Shown one piece after another: positions 25,905-37,248 of a DNA stretch of 64,000 nucleotides. This DNA comes from Myxococcota bacterium (lineage in GTDB: Bacteria > Myxococcota_A > Bradymonadia > UBA7976 > UBA1532). The stretch is taken from the NCBI GenBank assembly GCA_963169045.1, contig CAUJDF010000108.1, forward strand, positions 1 through 64,000. The letters are read 5' to 3'. The first letter of the stretch is position 1, and each line of letters opens with the position of its first letter. The notes below the pieces were generated by a model that searched no databases, was not told the DNA's origin, and saw only the letters and a list, made by a program, of their open reading frames with translations. The position numbers and the translations under genes were made by a program.

Positions 25905-27398
<1,494 letters not shown>

Positions 27399-27473: not shown

Positions 27474-30212
27474 TCAGCGGACGAGGACGCAGAGGCCGTC
27501 GACGCAGACGGCGTTCGGCGGGCAGGCGCGCTCGTCGTCGCACTGTCCGCCGACGAGGCCGCCGCACACGCCGTTCACGCACGCGGTGCCATCCGGGCAG
27601 TCCCCGTCGGCGCCGCACATCACCGGTCCCTCGCGGCGCGGCATGCACTGGTCGACCTCCATGCACTGGTCGCAGACCTCGTTGCCGCGCTCGTCGATGA
27701 AGCACCCGCAGGCGCCGCCCTGGCCGATGTCGCACGCCGGATGCGCCTCGCAGCGATCGAGATCGAGGCCCCAGCAGGCGTCGGGATCCGCCGACCAGCA
27801 GCCCGCGTCGCCCTCGAGCCGCAGGCAGCCCTGGACGTCGTCGCAGCGATCCGGCGGGAGCTGGTCGCAGGCGAACTGGACCGGCACGCAGAAGAGCTGC
27901 ACCTGGCACTCGCCCTCGTCGGGGGGCGGCGCGATGAGGCACTCGGCGCCCTCCGGGCACGCCGGCCCGCCGCCGCCGAAGCAGATCTCCTCCTCGCGGG
28001 GGAAGCACCGCTCGTCGGCGGCGCAGACGTCGGGCGGCAGCCCGTTGCAGTGCTCGTGGATGTTCACGCAGAGGCGCGCGGGCTCGCAGACCGGGCAGTC
28101 GGGCTGGTCCGCGGCGCACGGCAGGCACGGCGGGACGGGGCCGTCGACGACCACGCACTCCGCGTTCTGCTCGCAGCGGTCGGCGTCGAGCTCGTGGCAC
28201 TGGAGCGGGAACCAGCTCGGCACGCACTGGCCGAGGACCGGCGCCGGCGGGGCCGGGAAGGGAACGCCGGGCGCATCGCAGTCGCAGTCCGGCGAGCCGT
28301 CCGCGCAGGCGCAGCCGCCGCCCTCGCCCGCCGCGCCGCCGGCGCCACCGCCGCCGGGGAAGCCGCCGCCGTCGCCGTCCTGGAAGGCCATCCAGCGGCA
28401 GTCCTCGCGGCCGCCGCACTGCGCCTGGTCGAGGACCTCGCAGCCCCCGTTGCCGCCGTCGCCGACGCAGCGCAGCTCGACCCGGCAGATGCACGGCTCG
28501 GGAGCGCCGCCGCCCTCGGGCGGATCGGCGTCGGGCGGGGGCGCGGGGCGGCGGCCGTCGGGCGCGGGCATGTCGCCATTGCAGAAGCAGTCCTCGAACT
28601 CCTCGAGATGGCAGCCGCGGACGTTGCCGCACTGCTCCGGCGCCAGGTTCTCGCAGAGGCCGCCGCCGATCGTCACGCAGGCGAAGCACTGGTCGCACGG
28701 CGCGGGCCGGATGGGCTGCGCGCAGGCGCAGTTCGGGTCGTCCGGCGCGCAGCCGCAGTCGTCGGGGAACGGGGCGCCGCCACCGTCGCACGCACAGTTG
28801 GGGATCTGCTCCCAGCCGCAGCCGGGGGTGTTGAAGCAGGTGCCGGCGTCGCCGATCTGCTCGCAGAGGCCGGGGCCGCCGGCGGGCACGCAGACCTGCT
28901 CCACCTGGCAGGGTGGCGGCGCGATGATGATGCGATCGGCGTCGGGCGCCTCGCCGTCGCGCCCATCGGCGCCCATGCCGCCGTCCTCGCAGATCTCGCG
29001 CTCCTGGACGCGGCAGCGACCGTCGCGGGCGCACTCGTTGATGCCGCGGGCGCCGCAGTTGGCCGGGTCGTCGTTCACGCAGACGCCCTGGGGCGGATCG
29101 CAGGGCGCGGGCTCGGCGCAGACGCAGTCCTCGCCGGGCGCGCAATCGCAGGGCGGGGGCGGCTCGCAGCCGGGGACGTCGCCGCCGTTCGCGCCTTCGA
29201 GGTGGCAGCCGGGGGTGGCCTCGCAGGCCTCCGGCGGCACGAGGCCGCAGTCGATCATCCGCGGCTGGCAGCCGAGGAAGCCGCCGCCGCAGTCGCACGG
29301 CGGGACGGGATCGCCGCCGCAGTTGTTCGGGTCCTCGCAGGGGGGCGCCGGGCGGGCGTCGGCGCCGCCGCACCCGCAGTCCTCGTTCCCGTCGTTGTAG
29401 ATCGGCTCGCAGTCGGCGCGCGCCTGGCAGGCGCCCTCGTCGAGGGTGTCGCAGCGGCCGGCGGGGCGCTCCATGCACGTCTCGCCGTTCCACGCGCAGT
29501 CGTTGCGCAGCGCGCAAGCGTTCATCTCGAGCTGCTCGCAGGCGAGCTGCGACTGGTCGACCTCGCAGGCGCGACCGTTCCAGCGGCAGTCCTGGCGGGC
29601 GTTGCAGGCGCCCTCGGCGAGGCGGTCGCAGGTGGGGAGCTGCTCGTCTTCGCGGCAGCCCTGCGGCGTCCACACGCAGCCCTCGGCGGCAACGCACGTC
29701 GCCTCGTCGGGCTTGTCGCAGCGGCCCGGCTGGATCTCCGCCTCCTCGTGGCAGGCATCGTCGTACCAATGACAGCCCGCGCCCTCGCAGGCGGCCTGGG
29801 CGCCGTGGTCCTCGCACTCGGGCACCGGCTGGCCGCAGGCCTCGCCGTCCCAGGCGCAGTCGTCGCGGCGGTCGCATCGACCCTCGTCGAGCTGGCTGCA
29901 GGCGACGCCGTTCAGATCGCGACACTCGACGAAGTCGCCGAAGACGTCGTTCAGCGGCGCGCAGTCCTCGCGGCCGGCGCAGGCCTGGGCGTTCAGCGAC
30001 GGACAGGGGCCGTCGACCGAGCCGCCGCCGCCGCCGCCGCCGCCGGCCCCGCCGTCGCCGCCGGCCCCGCCGCCGCCGTCGCCGCCGGCTCCGCCGCCGC
30101 CGCCGAGGCCGCCGCCGGCGCCCCCCTTGCCGTCCTCCCCCGAGGACTCCACATCGCAGGCCGCGAGCGCGAGACAGATCAGCGCCAGAGGCCCAATGCG
30201 TCGAAGTTGCAT
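27474..30212 (-). CDS. Large Cys-rich repeat lipoprotein
   Basis: MQLRRIGPLALICLALAACDVESS lipobox; Gly-rich GGAGG tether; about 15 modules such as CDRLAEGACNARQDCRWNGRAC. Confidence 0.88.
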   Translation of the reverse strand: MQLRRIGPLALICLALAACDVESSGEDGKGGAGGGLGGGGGAGGDGGGGAGGDGGAGGGGGGGGSVDGPCPSLNAQACAGREDCAPLNDVFGDFVECRDLNGVACSQLDEGRCDRRDDCAWDGEACGQPVPECEDHGAQAACEGAGCHWYDDACHEEAEIQPGRCDKPDEATCVAAEGCVWTPQGCREDEQLPTCDRLAEGACNARQDCRWNGRACEVDQSQLACEQLEMNACALRNDCAWNGETCMERPAGRCDTLDEGACQARADCEPIYNDGNEDCGCGGADARPAPPCEDPNNCGGDPVPPCDCGGGFLGCQPRMIDCGLVPPEACEATPGCHLEGANGGDVPGCEPPPPCDCAPGEDCVCAEPAPCDPPQGVCVNDDPANCGARGINECARDGRCRVQEREICEDGGMGADGRDGEAPDADRIIIAPPPCQVEQVCVPAGGPGLCEQIGDAGTCFNTPGCGWEQIPNCACDGGGAPFPDDCGCAPDDPNCACAQPIRPAPCDQCFACVTIGGGLCENLAPEQCGNVRGCHLEEFEDCFCNGDMPAPDGRRPAPPPDADPPEGGGAPEPCICRVELRCVGDGGNGGCEVLDQAQCGGREDCRWMAFQDGDGGGFPGGGGAGGAAGEGGGCACADGSPDCDCDAPGVPFPAPPAPVLGQCVPSWFPLQCHELDADRCEQNAECVVVDGPVPPCLPCAADQPDCPVCEPARLCVNIHEHCNGLPPDVCAADERCFPREEEICFGGGGPACPEGAECLIAPPPDEGECQVQLFCVPVQFACDQLPPDRCDDVQGCLRLEGDAGCWSADPDACWGLDLDRCEAHPACDIGQGGACGCFIDERGNEVCDQCMEVDQCMPRREGPVMCGADGDCPDGTACVNGVCGGLVGGQCDDERACPPNAVCVDGLCVLVR

Positions 30213-32065: not shown

Positions 32066-32210
32066 GCGCCTCCTCCCTCGCCTGGGGCCGTCTCTCGCCC
32101 GGGGCCGTCGCGCCTCGTCGGCCACCGCTCGCCTGGGGCGGCGTGAGCATAGCCTACCGGCCCGGCGCTGTGATAAGAGCGCCGCGTCGGGGTTCGCGGA
32201 GAGGGGTCCC

Positions 32211-33248
32211 ATGTCCTTCCTGGTGATGGGGTGCGGCGGCATCGGCGGCGTGGTGTCGGCGGGTCTGATCGAGATGGGGCAACGGGTCTTCCCGGTCGCG
32301 CGCAGCCGCGACGTGGTCGACGCGATCGCGGCGCAGGGCTTCCGCCTGCGCGGCGAGGGCGGGCCCCGCACGGTGGCTGGGCGGGCGTATCTCGGCGTCC
32401 CGGCGGCGGAGGGGCCCTTCGACACGGTGCTGCTGGCGACGCAGCCCACCGACGCCGAGGCGGCGATGCGCGAGGCCCTGCCGCACCTGACGCCCGACGC
32501 CCGCGTCGTCTGCTTCCAGAACGGCCTGTGCGAGGAGCGCGTGGGCCGCATCCTCGGCGATCCGGCGCGCGTGATCGGCGGCGTGGTGGTCTGGGGCGCG
32601 TCGATGGTCGAGCCGGGCGTCTTCGACCGCACGTCCGCCGGTGGCTTCGTGCTCGGGCGTTACGACGGCGGCGACGACGCGGCGGTCGACCGCCTGGCGA
32701 CGCTGCTCGAGGTGATCGGGCCGGTGCAGCGCACCGAGAACCTGGCCGGCGCCCGGTGGAGCAAGCTGGCGATCAACTGCGGCATCACCTCGCTCGGCTG
32801 CATCGGCGGCGACCGCCTCGGCGCGCTCGTGCGATTGCGGGTGGTGCGGCGGCTGATGCTCGAGATCATCACCGAGGTCGTGCAGGTTGCGCGTCGGCTC
32901 GACGTCCGGCTCGAGAAGGTGTCGGGCACGCTCGACCTCGACTGGATCGCGCTGACCGAGGCGGAGCGCAGGCAGGCCGGCTCGGTGGCGCTCGCCGGCA
33001 AGCACGCGCTGCTGCTGGCGGTGGGCCTGCGCTACCGGCGCATGCGGTCGTCGATGCTGCGGGCCATCGAGCGTGGCCGGCCGCCGGCCATCGATTTCCT
33101 GAACGGCGAGGTGGTGGAGCGGGCGCGGCGCCTCGAGATCCCGACGCCCGTCAACGACGCGGTCATCGAGCGCGTGCGCGCGATCGCCGCCGGGGACGCG
33201 CGGCCCGGCCGCCCGCTGCTGGCGGATCTGTTCCGCGCCACGCGCTGA
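32211..33248 (+). CDS. panE: Ketopantoate reductase family (PanE/ApbA) protein
   Basis: MSFLVMGCGGIGGVVSAGL; QNGLCEE; WSKLAINCGITSLGCI. Confidence 0.88.
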   Translation: MSFLVMGCGGIGGVVSAGLIEMGQRVFPVARSRDVVDAIAAQGFRLRGEGGPRTVAGRAYLGVPAAEGPFDTVLLATQPTDAEAAMREALPHLTPDARVVCFQNGLCEERVGRILGDPARVIGGVVVWGASMVEPGVFDRTSAGGFVLGRYDGGDDAAVDRLATLLEVIGPVQRTENLAGARWSKLAINCGITSLGCIGGDRLGALVRLRVVRRLMLEIITEVVQVARRLDVRLEKVSGTLDLDWIALTEAERRQAGSVALAGKHALLLAVGLRYRRMRSSMLRAIERGRPPAIDFLNGEVVERARRLEIPTPVNDAVIERVRAIAAGDARPGRPLLADLFRATR

Positions 33249-33292: not shown

Positions 33293-34063
33293 ATGCGATT
33301 GTTCTCCTGGAACGTGAACGGCCTGCGGTCCGTGGCCCGCAAGGGATTCCTCGACTGGCTCGACCGGTCCGCGCCGGACGTGCTGTGCCTGCAGGAGACG
33401 CGGGTGCTGCCGGCGCAGCTCGACGACGCGTTGCTGTCGGCCCACGGCTACCACGTGGTGTGGCACGCGGCGCAGAAGCCCGGGTACAGCGGCGTGGCGA
33501 CGTTCTCGCGCCGGCCGCCCGACGCCGTCGGCGCCGGCATGGGCGTCGAGGCGTTCGACCGGGAGGGTCGTGTGGTGGTCACGCACCACGGCGACGTCAC
33601 GCTGGTGAACGCGTACTTCCCGAACGGGCAGCGCGACTGCTCGCGCGTACCGTTCAAGGGCGAATTCTATCGAACGATGTTGACCTTCCTCGAGCGCCTG
33701 CGGTCCGAGGGGCGGCAGGTCGTGGTCTGCGGGGACTTCAACACGGCCCACAGGGCGATCGATCTGAAGAACTGGCGGAGCAACCAGAAGACGACGGGGT
33801 TCCTGCCGGAGGAGCGCGCCCTGTTCGACGAGTACGTGGCCGCCGGGTGGGTCGACGCATTCCGGGCGATGCACCCCGACGTGCCCGACCGCTACACGTG
33901 GTGGTCCAACCGGCCCGGCGTGCGCGAGCGCAACATCGGGTGGCGCATCGACTACCACCTGGTGGCGCCCGAGCTGTGGCCGCGGGTCCGAGCGGCGCGG
34001 ATTCACGACGACGTGCGGGGGTCGGACCACTGCCCGATCGAGCTCGAGCTCGAGGCGCCATGA
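33293..34063 (+). CDS. xthA: Exodeoxyribonuclease III
   Basis: MRLFSWNVNGLRSVARKGFLDWL; CLQETR; CGDFNTAHRAIDL; RIDYHL; GSDHCPI. Confidence 0.95.
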   Translation: MRLFSWNVNGLRSVARKGFLDWLDRSAPDVLCLQETRVLPAQLDDALLSAHGYHVVWHAAQKPGYSGVATFSRRPPDAVGAGMGVEAFDREGRVVVTHHGDVTLVNAYFPNGQRDCSRVPFKGEFYRTMLTFLERLRSEGRQVVVCGDFNTAHRAIDLKNWRSNQKTTGFLPEERALFDEYVAAGWVDAFRAMHPDVPDRYTWWSNRPGVRERNIGWRIDYHLVAPELWPRVRAARIHDDVRGSDHCPIELELEAP

Positions 34064-37000
34064 GGCTGGGACGCCTCCTCGTCGCGCTGGCGCTCGTCGG
34101 TTGCGCCCCCGACGTGACGAACCAGTGCGGCGGGAACGGAGACTGTCCCGCGGCGCGGCCGGTGTGCGGTCCCGGCGGCGTCTGCGTCGCGCCGGCGGCG
34201 GTCGGCGACGGCGGCCTCCCGCGCGACGGCGCGCCCTCGGACGACACGCGGGCCTGCGCGCCGTCGGCCTTCCCCGTCTACGACAGCTGCGACGGGCGCG
34301 ACGACGACTGCGACGGGCGCGTCGACGAGGGCGGCGGGTCGCCGCCGGCGGCCGAGCAGGCGTGCTTCGACGGGCCCGAGGGCGCCGCGGGGCGGGGGCG
34401 GTGCCGGCGCGGCGTCCAGGCGTGCGCCGACGGGGCGTGGGGCGAGTGCGCAGGGCAGGTCCTGCCCGATCTCGAGCAGTGCAACGGCGTCGACGACGAC
34501 TGCGACGGCCCCGTCGACGAGGGCCCCGAGGGACCCGAAACGCTCGTCGAGCGCTGCTACGACGGGCCTCCGGGCACGGTCGACGTGGGCCCGTGCCGCG
34601 CCGGCCGCCGCTTCTGCGCTGGCGGGGCCGTCGGCGGCCCGTGCGAGGCGCAGGTCGTGCCGGCGGTCGAGATCTGCGACGAGATCGACAACGACTGCGA
34701 CGGCGCCGTCGACGAGCAGGTCGAGGGCGGATGCCGGTGCGAGCCGGGCGAGGCGCGCCCCTGCTACTCCGGCGGGCCCGGGACGGCGGGCGAGGGCGAG
34801 TGCGCGGCGGGCGAGCAGCGGTGCGGTCCGCACGGCATGTGGGGCGCCTGCGCGGGTGAGCGCGTGCCGGGCAGCGAGATCTGCAACGGCCAGGACGACG
34901 ACTGCGACGGCGTGATCGATGACGTGCCGGGGCGCGGTGACGCGTGCGCCGCCGGTACGGGCGCGTGTCGGGCGGTCGGGCGGCTCGAGTGCGCGGCCGA
35001 CGGACGCCTGCGTTGCGATGCGGAGGCGGGCCGTCCGCGAGCCGAGACGTGCGATGGCGTCGACGACGACTGCGACGGCCGCGCCGACGAGGCCGAGGGC
35101 GGCGGTCCGCTGCGCGAGGCCTGCTTCTCGGGCGCGCCGCCGGCGCGGGCGGGCGTGGGGCTGTGCCGCGCCGGCGCGCGCACATGCGACGCAGGGCGCT
35201 GGGGCCCGTGCGCGGGCGAGGTCGCGCCCGCCGCCGAGATCTGTGACGGCCGCGACAACGACTGCGACGGGGCGGTCGACGACGTCGACGGGGGCTGCCG
35301 CTGCATGGTCGGCGACGAGCGCGAATGCTGGTCGGGCCCCGATGGCGCCGCCGGCGTGGGTCCGTGTCGGGCGGGGCGGCAGCGCTGCGGCGCCGCCGGC
35401 TGGGGGCCGTGCGAGGGCGAGGCGCTGCCGGGTCCCGAGATCTGCAACGGGATCGACGACGACTGCGACGGCCGCCGGGACGACGACGTCCCGGGCACGG
35501 GGCTCGCCTGCGAGGCGGGCGTGGGCGCGTGTGCGGCGCCCGGCGTCACCCGGTGCGCGGGGGGAGACGTCGTCTGCGGCGCGACGGCGGGCCCGGAGGG
35601 TGACGAGCGCTGCAACGGCGTCGACGACGATTGCGACGGCGCGATCGACGAGGACGACCCGGAGGGCGGCGTCCAGTGCGTGGCGGCGGCCGAGGGTCGT
35701 TGCCGCGCCGGCGCGAGCCGGTGCACGCCGCAGGGCCTGGTCTGCGTCTCCCTCCGCTCCGCCGTCGCGGAGACGTGCAACGGCGAGGACGACGACTGCG
35801 ACGGGGCGACCGACGAGGGCGCGCTGCCGCAGGTCGGCGACGGGTGCGCCACGGGCATGGGCGGCGTCTGCGAGCCGGGCACACGGGTGTGTGTGATGGG
35901 TGGTCTGCCGTGCCGGCCGAACCGCCACGCCGTGGCCGAGGCATGCAACGGCGCCGACGACGACTGCGACGGAACGACCGACGAGGACGAGGCCCAGCGG
36001 GCCTGCGCCGCGCCGCACGCGAACGGCGCGTGCGAGGACGCCCGGTGCAGCCTGCGCTGTGACGCGGGCTGGTCCGACCTGAACGAGGTGGCGGCCGACG
36101 GCTGCGAGCGTGGCTGCGCGCCGCCGGGCGCCGGGCAGGTCGTCGCGGTCACGGGCGAGATGGGGGACGTCGTCCAGCCGGCGCTCGCCCTCGGCGCACG
36201 TCAGGCCGGCATCGCCTGGGAGACCGCGCCCGGCGCGGGACCGCTCGGCATCGCCGGGCCGGGCGGCAACACGAACGTGGCGTTCCGCGAGGGCGCCGGC
36301 GAGCCGATCGTGCTGCCGCCGCCCCGGGGCGCCAGTTGGTCCGCGCCCGCGGTGGCGGCGTTCGGCGACGGCTTCGCGGTGGCGGTCCGGCGGGGCCCCG
36401 CGGGGGGCGCCGCGGACGGCATCTCGTTGTTCGTCGTGGTGGGCGGCAGCGTCCTCCGGCAACACCACGCGGTCGCCGCGGGCGCCGGCGCGCCCGCCCT
36501 GGCCGTCGCCGCGCTGGACGGGCAGCCGGCGCTCGTCGCGGTGTTCGCGGCCGAGGGCGAGCGGGCCGAGGGGCGCGGGCTGCGCGCGGTGGTCGTCGTC
36601 TGGGGCGCCGACGGCGAGGCGCGCGCCCGCGAGTTCTGGCTCGGGGACGCGCGCGACGCCATGGCGCCCTCGCACCTGCGGCCCGCCGTCGTCGCCCTGG
36701 GACCGGACCACCTGGTGGCGCTCGCGCCGGTGGGGGCGGCCGTGTTCGGGGTGCGGGCGGTGCCGTTCGGGCCGGCCGGCAACCTCGGCGCGCCGCTGAT
36801 GACGGCGCTCGGCGTGGCCGTCCCCTCGAGCGCGGTCACCGCGGCGGTGGGCCATGACCGCGTCGCCGCGGCGTGGACGACCGCCAACGGCGCGACGCTC
36901 CACCGCGTCAGCCTCGACCTCGCCGATCGCTTCGCGCCGGTCCTCGTCGACGAGACGACCGTGAACGGCGGCGTCGGCGACTTTGCGCTCCCGTCGCTGG

Positions 37001-37248
37001 TCCAGGCCGGTCAGGGCTTCGCGCTGTTCCTTCGGGCAAGTCTGCGGGGCGAGCCCCGCCTGGTCGTCGTGCCGGTGGCGGCCGACGGCGTCGCCGCGGC
37101 GCCCGCGGCGAACGTCTCCGAGGGCGACGCTCTGGCGGTGGGCGCGCGGGCGGCGGCGCGCGACGGGCAGGTGCGTCTGCTGATCGGCCGCGTGAACGCG
37201 GTCACGCGCGCCATCGATCTTTCGCTGCAGCCGATCGCCTGCGAGTAG
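34060..37248 (+). CDS. Lipoprotein with ten MopE-type CNGxDDDCDGxxDE repeats and beta-propeller-like C-terminus
   Basis: MRLGRLLVALALVGCAPD lipobox; repeats such as CNGVDDDCDGPVDEG; 4-bp overlap with xthA. Confidence 0.92.
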   Translation: MRLGRLLVALALVGCAPDVTNQCGGNGDCPAARPVCGPGGVCVAPAAVGDGGLPRDGAPSDDTRACAPSAFPVYDSCDGRDDDCDGRVDEGGGSPPAAEQACFDGPEGAAGRGRCRRGVQACADGAWGECAGQVLPDLEQCNGVDDDCDGPVDEGPEGPETLVERCYDGPPGTVDVGPCRAGRRFCAGGAVGGPCEAQVVPAVEICDEIDNDCDGAVDEQVEGGCRCEPGEARPCYSGGPGTAGEGECAAGEQRCGPHGMWGACAGERVPGSEICNGQDDDCDGVIDDVPGRGDACAAGTGACRAVGRLECAADGRLRCDAEAGRPRAETCDGVDDDCDGRADEAEGGGPLREACFSGAPPARAGVGLCRAGARTCDAGRWGPCAGEVAPAAEICDGRDNDCDGAVDDVDGGCRCMVGDERECWSGPDGAAGVGPCRAGRQRCGAAGWGPCEGEALPGPEICNGIDDDCDGRRDDDVPGTGLACEAGVGACAAPGVTRCAGGDVVCGATAGPEGDERCNGVDDDCDGAIDEDDPEGGVQCVAAAEGRCRAGASRCTPQGLVCVSLRSAVAETCNGEDDDCDGATDEGALPQVGDGCATGMGGVCEPGTRVCVMGGLPCRPNRHAVAEACNGADDDCDGTTDEDEAQRACAAPHANGACEDARCSLRCDAGWSDLNEVAADGCERGCAPPGAGQVVAVTGEMGDVVQPALALGARQAGIAWETAPGAGPLGIAGPGGNTNVAFREGAGEPIVLPPPRGASWSAPAVAAFGDGFAVAVRRGPAGGAADGISLFVVVGGSVLRQHHAVAAGAGAPALAVAALDGQPALVAVFAAEGERAEGRGLRAVVVVWGADGEARAREFWLGDARDAMAPSHLRPAVVALGPDHLVALAPVGAAVFGVRAVPFGPAGNLGAPLMTALGVAVPSSAVTAAVGHDRVAAAWTTANGATLHRVSLDLADRFAPVLVDETTVNGGVGDFALPSLVQAGQGFALFLRASLRGEPRLVVVPVAADGVAAAPAANVSEGDALAVGARAAARDGQVRLLIGRVNAVTRAIDLSLQPIACE

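Follow-up and report, generated by a model that had tools for sequence, protein, structure and literature searches.

Amino acids 70–865 of a 912-amino acid, Cys-rich lipoprotein are built from 16 Cys modules of a type that is real, conserved, and unnamed, being ordinary in kind and new in identity. The gene lies within the window, by which we mean the entire 64,000-nucleotide stretch of DNA analyzed here. The module is predicted with confidence to fold as a short helix followed by a β-hairpin. It also extends beyond what the earlier note on this DNA had described, as it is not confined to the protein at 27474–30212 and recurs across the phylum. The features of the locus are as follows.

27474..30212, (–) strand: gene for the 912-amino acid Cys-rich lipoprotein (ATG start, 116 Cys, homologues)
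30159..30212, (–) strand: signal peptide, amino acids 1–18, MQLRRIGPLALICLALAA (sequence)
30156..30167, (–) strand: lipobox LAAC, amino acids 16–19, with Cys19 predicted to be lipidated and Asp at +2 (sequence, homologues)
30006..30155, (–) strand: Gly-rich linker, amino acids 20–69 (sequence)
29454..30005, (–) strand: six tandem 4-Cys modules, amino acids 70–253 (alignment A3; AlphaFold2 model of amino acids 195–253)
27618..29453, (–) strand: ten further modules, amino acids 254–865, mostly expanded and containing 6–12 Cys (A8 profile; AlphaFold2 model of amino acids 813–862)
27477..27617, (–) strand: C-terminal tail, amino acids 866–912, with two short 4-Cys units (EB and DUF7107 matches)
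25908..27398, (–) strand: biotin carboxylase, the adjoining downstream gene (same or nearby neighbor in homologous loci)
32205..33245, (+) strand: ketopantoate reductase-like gene (ApbA/PanE), upstream flank (other side of the syntenic site)

Module architecture and predicted fold

The codon-position composition at 27474–30212 (GC3 of 0.95, in a window of ~75% GC) is that of a real gene. By inspection, LAAC at amino acids 16–19 fits the lipoprotein pattern [LVI][ASTVI][GAS]C, and homologues also have a lipobox-like motif. Together with the linker at amino acids 20–69, this bears out the earlier description of a Cys-rich lipoprotein with a lipobox and a Gly-rich spacer. The mature protein is strongly acidic (165 D+E vs. 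46 K+R), and no head or ligand-binding domain is recognizable within the 912 amino acids. Asp at +2 is an inner-membrane retention signal in E. coli, a rule not known to hold for the window's lineage; if applied here, it would place the protein in the periplasm.

The modules are of two related kinds, a 4-Cys kind and an expanded kind that most often has eight Cys. The six N-terminal modules (starting at amino acids 70, 105, 133, 165, 195, and 225) are of the 4-Cys kind, which is 28–35 amino acids in length (~30) and has the consensus C1-x2-L-x4-C2-x5-C3-x-W-x4-C4. The first of these has a longer C3–C4 gap, and the L and W are absent from some modules. The later ten start at amino acids 254, 322, 386, 450, 520, 591, 672, 722, 782, and 813, with the module at 782, which has four Cys, being the exception among them. 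Expanded modules mostly keep C1-L-C2-C3 and C4, and carry a Cys-rich insertion between C3 and C4, in the final hairpin. This insertion typically consists of CxC, an acidic Gly/Pro-rich stretch, and a second CxC, with 6 to 12 Cys per module; the long Gly/Asp/Pro loops noticed earlier in some modules are real and correspond to these hairpin-tip insertions. The two kinds are linked over C1–C3 by hhalign (probability 75%, E = 2.5e-5).

The core pattern occurs far more often than expected by chance, with 24 matches (overlaps counted), whereas 2000 composition-preserving shuffles had 4.6 ± 2.6 matches and never more than 17. All four modules quoted in the earlier note are present in the translation, and its repeated Cys module is confirmed, with the count of about 15 copies revised to 16. 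The Cys skeleton is kept in homologues at ~45% identity while the tips vary in length, and two homologues at 64% identity have 114 of 115 aligned Cys columns in common.

The number of Cys from one module to the next is even in 12 of 12 intervals in the window protein alone. Among 11 family proteins it is even in 121 of 121 confidently anchored intervals (anchors that start at C1 and score 7 bits or more), which we take as support with no clean p-value, as the proteins are mutually related and the cut-off was set after the first parity result had been seen. In that first count, which admitted weak anchors, 136 intervals were even and 13 were odd, the odd ones being weak or mis-anchored module matches. 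Even parity is expected if disulfides close within modules. The window genome encodes four VKOR-type disulfide oxidases, which would provide the capacity to oxidize exported proteins; no DsbB was found in this genome.

Structure prediction of a single module, suggested in the earlier note, yielded a helix and a hairpin for both kinds with AlphaFold2. The model of a module pair (amino acids 195–253; input, a 13-row alignment of modules from the window and L027) has a pLDDT of 87.8; its first module shows a helix at residues 6–11 and a hairpin at 15–17/22–24, and these elements recur in its second module. The model of an 8-Cys module (amino acids 813–862) has a pLDDT of 90.9, with a helix at residues 6–11 and a long hairpin at 15–27/33–46. 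The pTM is ~0.55 in both models, as is usual at such short chain length. Judging from the register of the strands, the extra Cys of the 8-Cys module (23 and 25 vs. 35 and 38) would oppose one another across the hairpin. By analogy to PSI, the pairing may be C1–C3 and C2–C4, with nested pairs across the strands of the long hairpins. Foldseek found nothing at E ≤ 0.001 for either model in the PDB, or for the module pair among viral models.

Distribution and genomic setting

The sample from the window's GTDB family comprises 13 genomes, with that of the window (G000) included. Large family proteins occur in eight of them (G000, G001, G002, G003, G005, G006, G007, and G009), in two copies each in G000, G007, and G009; those of G007 and G009 are tandem duplicates. 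The second of the two adjacent paralogues in G009 (L039, 5399–10208, (–) strand) is a near-perfect run of 8-Cys modules of 48–52 amino acids. Of the arrays seen it is the cleanest, and it would suit structure work best. Weak matches in contigs C72 and C3 of the window genome proved to be Gly-rich linkers only and were rejected.

Of 379 genomes sampled from throughout the phylum, 31 had matches to a profile of the 4-Cys pair (A7). These genomes belong to several families, and the matches are mostly in short lipoproteins that have 2–8 modules behind Ser/Gly/Ala/Asp spacers. A profile of the expanded module (A8) had matches in 11 of the 379: the eight family genomes, G056, G039, and G236. The G056 protein (L112, 73–2208, (+) strand) is a 712-amino acid lipoprotein with a clear expanded-module array. 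As G056 belongs to a different family within the class, expanded modules also exist outside the window's family. The G039 match (L113) is partial, consisting mostly of other Cys repeats with few module-like ones, and the 8-Cys match in G236 (L110) was discounted, the core array not being visible. In G010, a single 4-Cys module (CNQLDQEACIARSSCVWESDQC) occurs within the otherwise unrelated sequence of a short lipoprotein (L040, 6857–7555, (–) strand). A large lipoprotein of G137 (L063, 1298–4672, (–) strand) has two 4-Cys modules mid-protein and, by inspection, a hydrolase-like region; the module therefore also occurs inside an apparent enzyme.

The gene occupies one common site in G000, G001, G002, G005, G006, and G007. 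It is flanked on one side by genes for biotin carboxylase and biotin carrier, and a methylmalonyl-CoA mutase gene was seen at the site in all six genomes except G001, where the contig ends, and G007. On the other side is an ApbA/PanE-like gene in G000, G001, G005, and G006, the G001 flank having been placed via DNA overlapping the TPR query. This synteny argues for orthology; a functional tie to propionyl-CoA metabolism was not supported. The gene is at other sites in G003 and G009. In G004, the ApbA/PanE and biotin carboxylase genes are close together with no lipoprotein gene between them, and the gene is therefore not essential there. The window also encodes a MopE-like protein with many CNGxDDDCDGxxDE repeats (34063–37248, (+) strand), and a similar Cys-rich DDDCDG protein is encoded near the homologue in G005 (L020, 2291–5026).

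Proposed role

On balance, the protein is probably a lipid-anchored, exported structural protein, acting at the cell surface as a disulfide-stapled rod that serves as spacer or adhesin. Once the protein is exported and lipidated at Cys19, its 16 small modules would be carried as an array on a flexible Gly-rich leash, each module composed of a short helix containing C2 and a β-hairpin with C3 on its first strand and C4 on its second, with Cys pairing within the module. The hairpin of expanded modules would be longer and stapled across its strands by extra Cys pairs, usually one CxC per strand, and would end in an acidic, Pro/Gly-rich tip of variable length. Such an array would form an extended, acidic rod that resists proteases, stands out from the envelope, and serves as spacer or adhesin, with contacts made through the variable tips.

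Several observations point to such a structural rod. The homologues share the lipobox and leash of the window protein. The Cys number is even in all 121 confidently anchored intervals, and a helix and hairpin are predicted for both kinds of module. The Cys skeleton is conserved, the tips differ in length, and the protein is strongly acidic. Lastly, many exported lipoproteins of the phylum contain the module, usually after a low-complexity spacer, and VKOR oxidases are available. Against this reading stand the lack of a recognizable head or ligand-binding domain, the periplasmic placement that Asp at +2 would imply under the E. coli rule, and the absence of the gene from the syntenic site in G004.

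More tentatively, the module may be a new, phylum-wide disulfide-stapled repeat fold, a minimal helix plus β-hairpin in which the hairpin serves as a natural scaffold for tip extension. Small lipoproteins would use the core with tight turns, and giant surface rods would use it with long acidic tips held by extra staples, making the fold a general cell-surface building block. Eukaryotic surfaces commonly display disulfide-rich repeat arrays, which are, to our knowledge, less described in bacteria. The unnamed module reported here, whose fold is predicted with confidence, is present in ~8% of sampled genomes, in a phylum, probably the Myxococcota, noted for contact-dependent behavior, and is missed by current annotation. 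Naming it would enable annotation of many hypothetical lipoproteins, and the expandable hairpin offers a natural scaffold that can be tested.

Alternative roles and known families

Metal storage, TraA-like recognition, and protease inhibition are all less likely than a structural rod. As a metal-binding or storage lipoprotein, the protein would resemble a giant metallothionein, in which the CxC and CxxC pairs found in expanded modules would stay reduced and bind Cu, Zn, or similar ions. Such pairs are numerous, dense CxC pairs are shared with metallothionein (PF00131), and one segment, and only one, matches this family at chance level (E = 9.2). However, the protein is exported in an organism whose genome encodes VKOR oxidases, its Cys count is even per module, and a confidently predicted β-hairpin has the CxC pairs on its two opposing strands. 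In addition, the six N-terminal 4-Cys modules are without CxC, and no metal genes are among the neighbors examined. Metal storage is thus unlikely.

Also improbable is a role as the stalk of a system for contact or kin recognition, similar to TraA of Myxococcus, in which the modules would form the recognition surface. TraA has a Cys-rich tandem repeat proposed to form a rigid stalk (PMC3325183). The tandem duplicates in G007 and G009 and the second copy in the window genome would suit this role, but neither PA14 or another lectin domain nor MYXO-CTERM was found with Pfam and NCBIfam, and the core repeat is distinct from TIGR04201 (Myxo_Cys_RPT). The latter is likewise a short tandem Cys repeat (~22 amino acids) of exported myxobacterial proteins and a proposed stalk (PMC3325183). 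However, the core modules do not reach the cut-off of the TIGR04201 model, which as a positive control had 18 matches elsewhere in the window genome, and the tail alone resembles it, weakly (E = 0.087). TraA-type repeats of this family, which was described from Myxococcales, occur in contigs C42, C105, C30, C2, C39, and C29 of G000, among others, distributed over several long open frames.

A multi-domain protease inhibitor or decoy, in which each module is a stapled inhibitor and the variable hairpin tip its reactive loop, would account for tandem small disulfide-rich modules with tips of variable length, but is very unlikely, as no inhibitor family was matched in Pfam or NCBIfam, the tips are Gly/Pro/Asp-rich and hugely unequal in length, and the 4-Cys modules are nearly loopless.

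The core module was unmatched when the whole 912-amino acid protein was searched against Pfam and NCBIfam, and segments and relatives gave only isolated chance-level matches for the core, such as that to metallothionein. The HMM search for an existing characterized family, which the earlier note had named as the means of overturning its claim, hence assigned the core to none, and neither DUF4215 nor MopE was matched, as stated before. A profile search of the PDB had no match for the core module; PDB matches of another search appeared to be Gly-rich or chance noise and were discarded. No published description of the core repeat was found in the open-licence literature. The tail (amino acids 866–912) matches EB (PF01683; E = 1e-6, 29.1 bits, gathering cut-off 24.3) and DUF7107 (PF23416; E = 1.8e-6, 28.6 bits, gathering cut-off 24.6), matches that are limited to the last 47 amino acids and leave the 16 core modules out. 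The repeat is therefore unnamed, as had been proposed, in its core (no Pfam, NCBIfam, or PDB family) and not in these last 47 amino acids.

Membership in the PSI family was rejected by sequence. Neither PSI profile (PF01437 or PF17205) matched the modules or their relatives up to E = 10, whereas an integrin PSI sequence used as positive control matched both, and hhalign gave a probability of 0.3% against one integrin PSI sequence. The integrin sequence used has seven Cys, as compared to four in ~22 residues for the module. PSI also has a Cys directly after the W, which is missing from the C-x-W-x(3-4)-C of the modules, and the PSI order of Cys is not reproduced. No PSI structure was among the Foldseek matches in the PDB (one search complete; in the other, the best 50 of 202, none with E < 2.5), a method that is insensitive for folds so small. 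The PSI fold is a helix and then a hairpin, and the topology of the module, a helix and then a C-x-W hairpin, looks similar to this core. The C-x-W motif, a probable richness in disulfides, and a probable occurrence in cell-surface proteins are further points in common with PSI and PSI_integrin, a family that the module resembles only loosely according to the earlier note.
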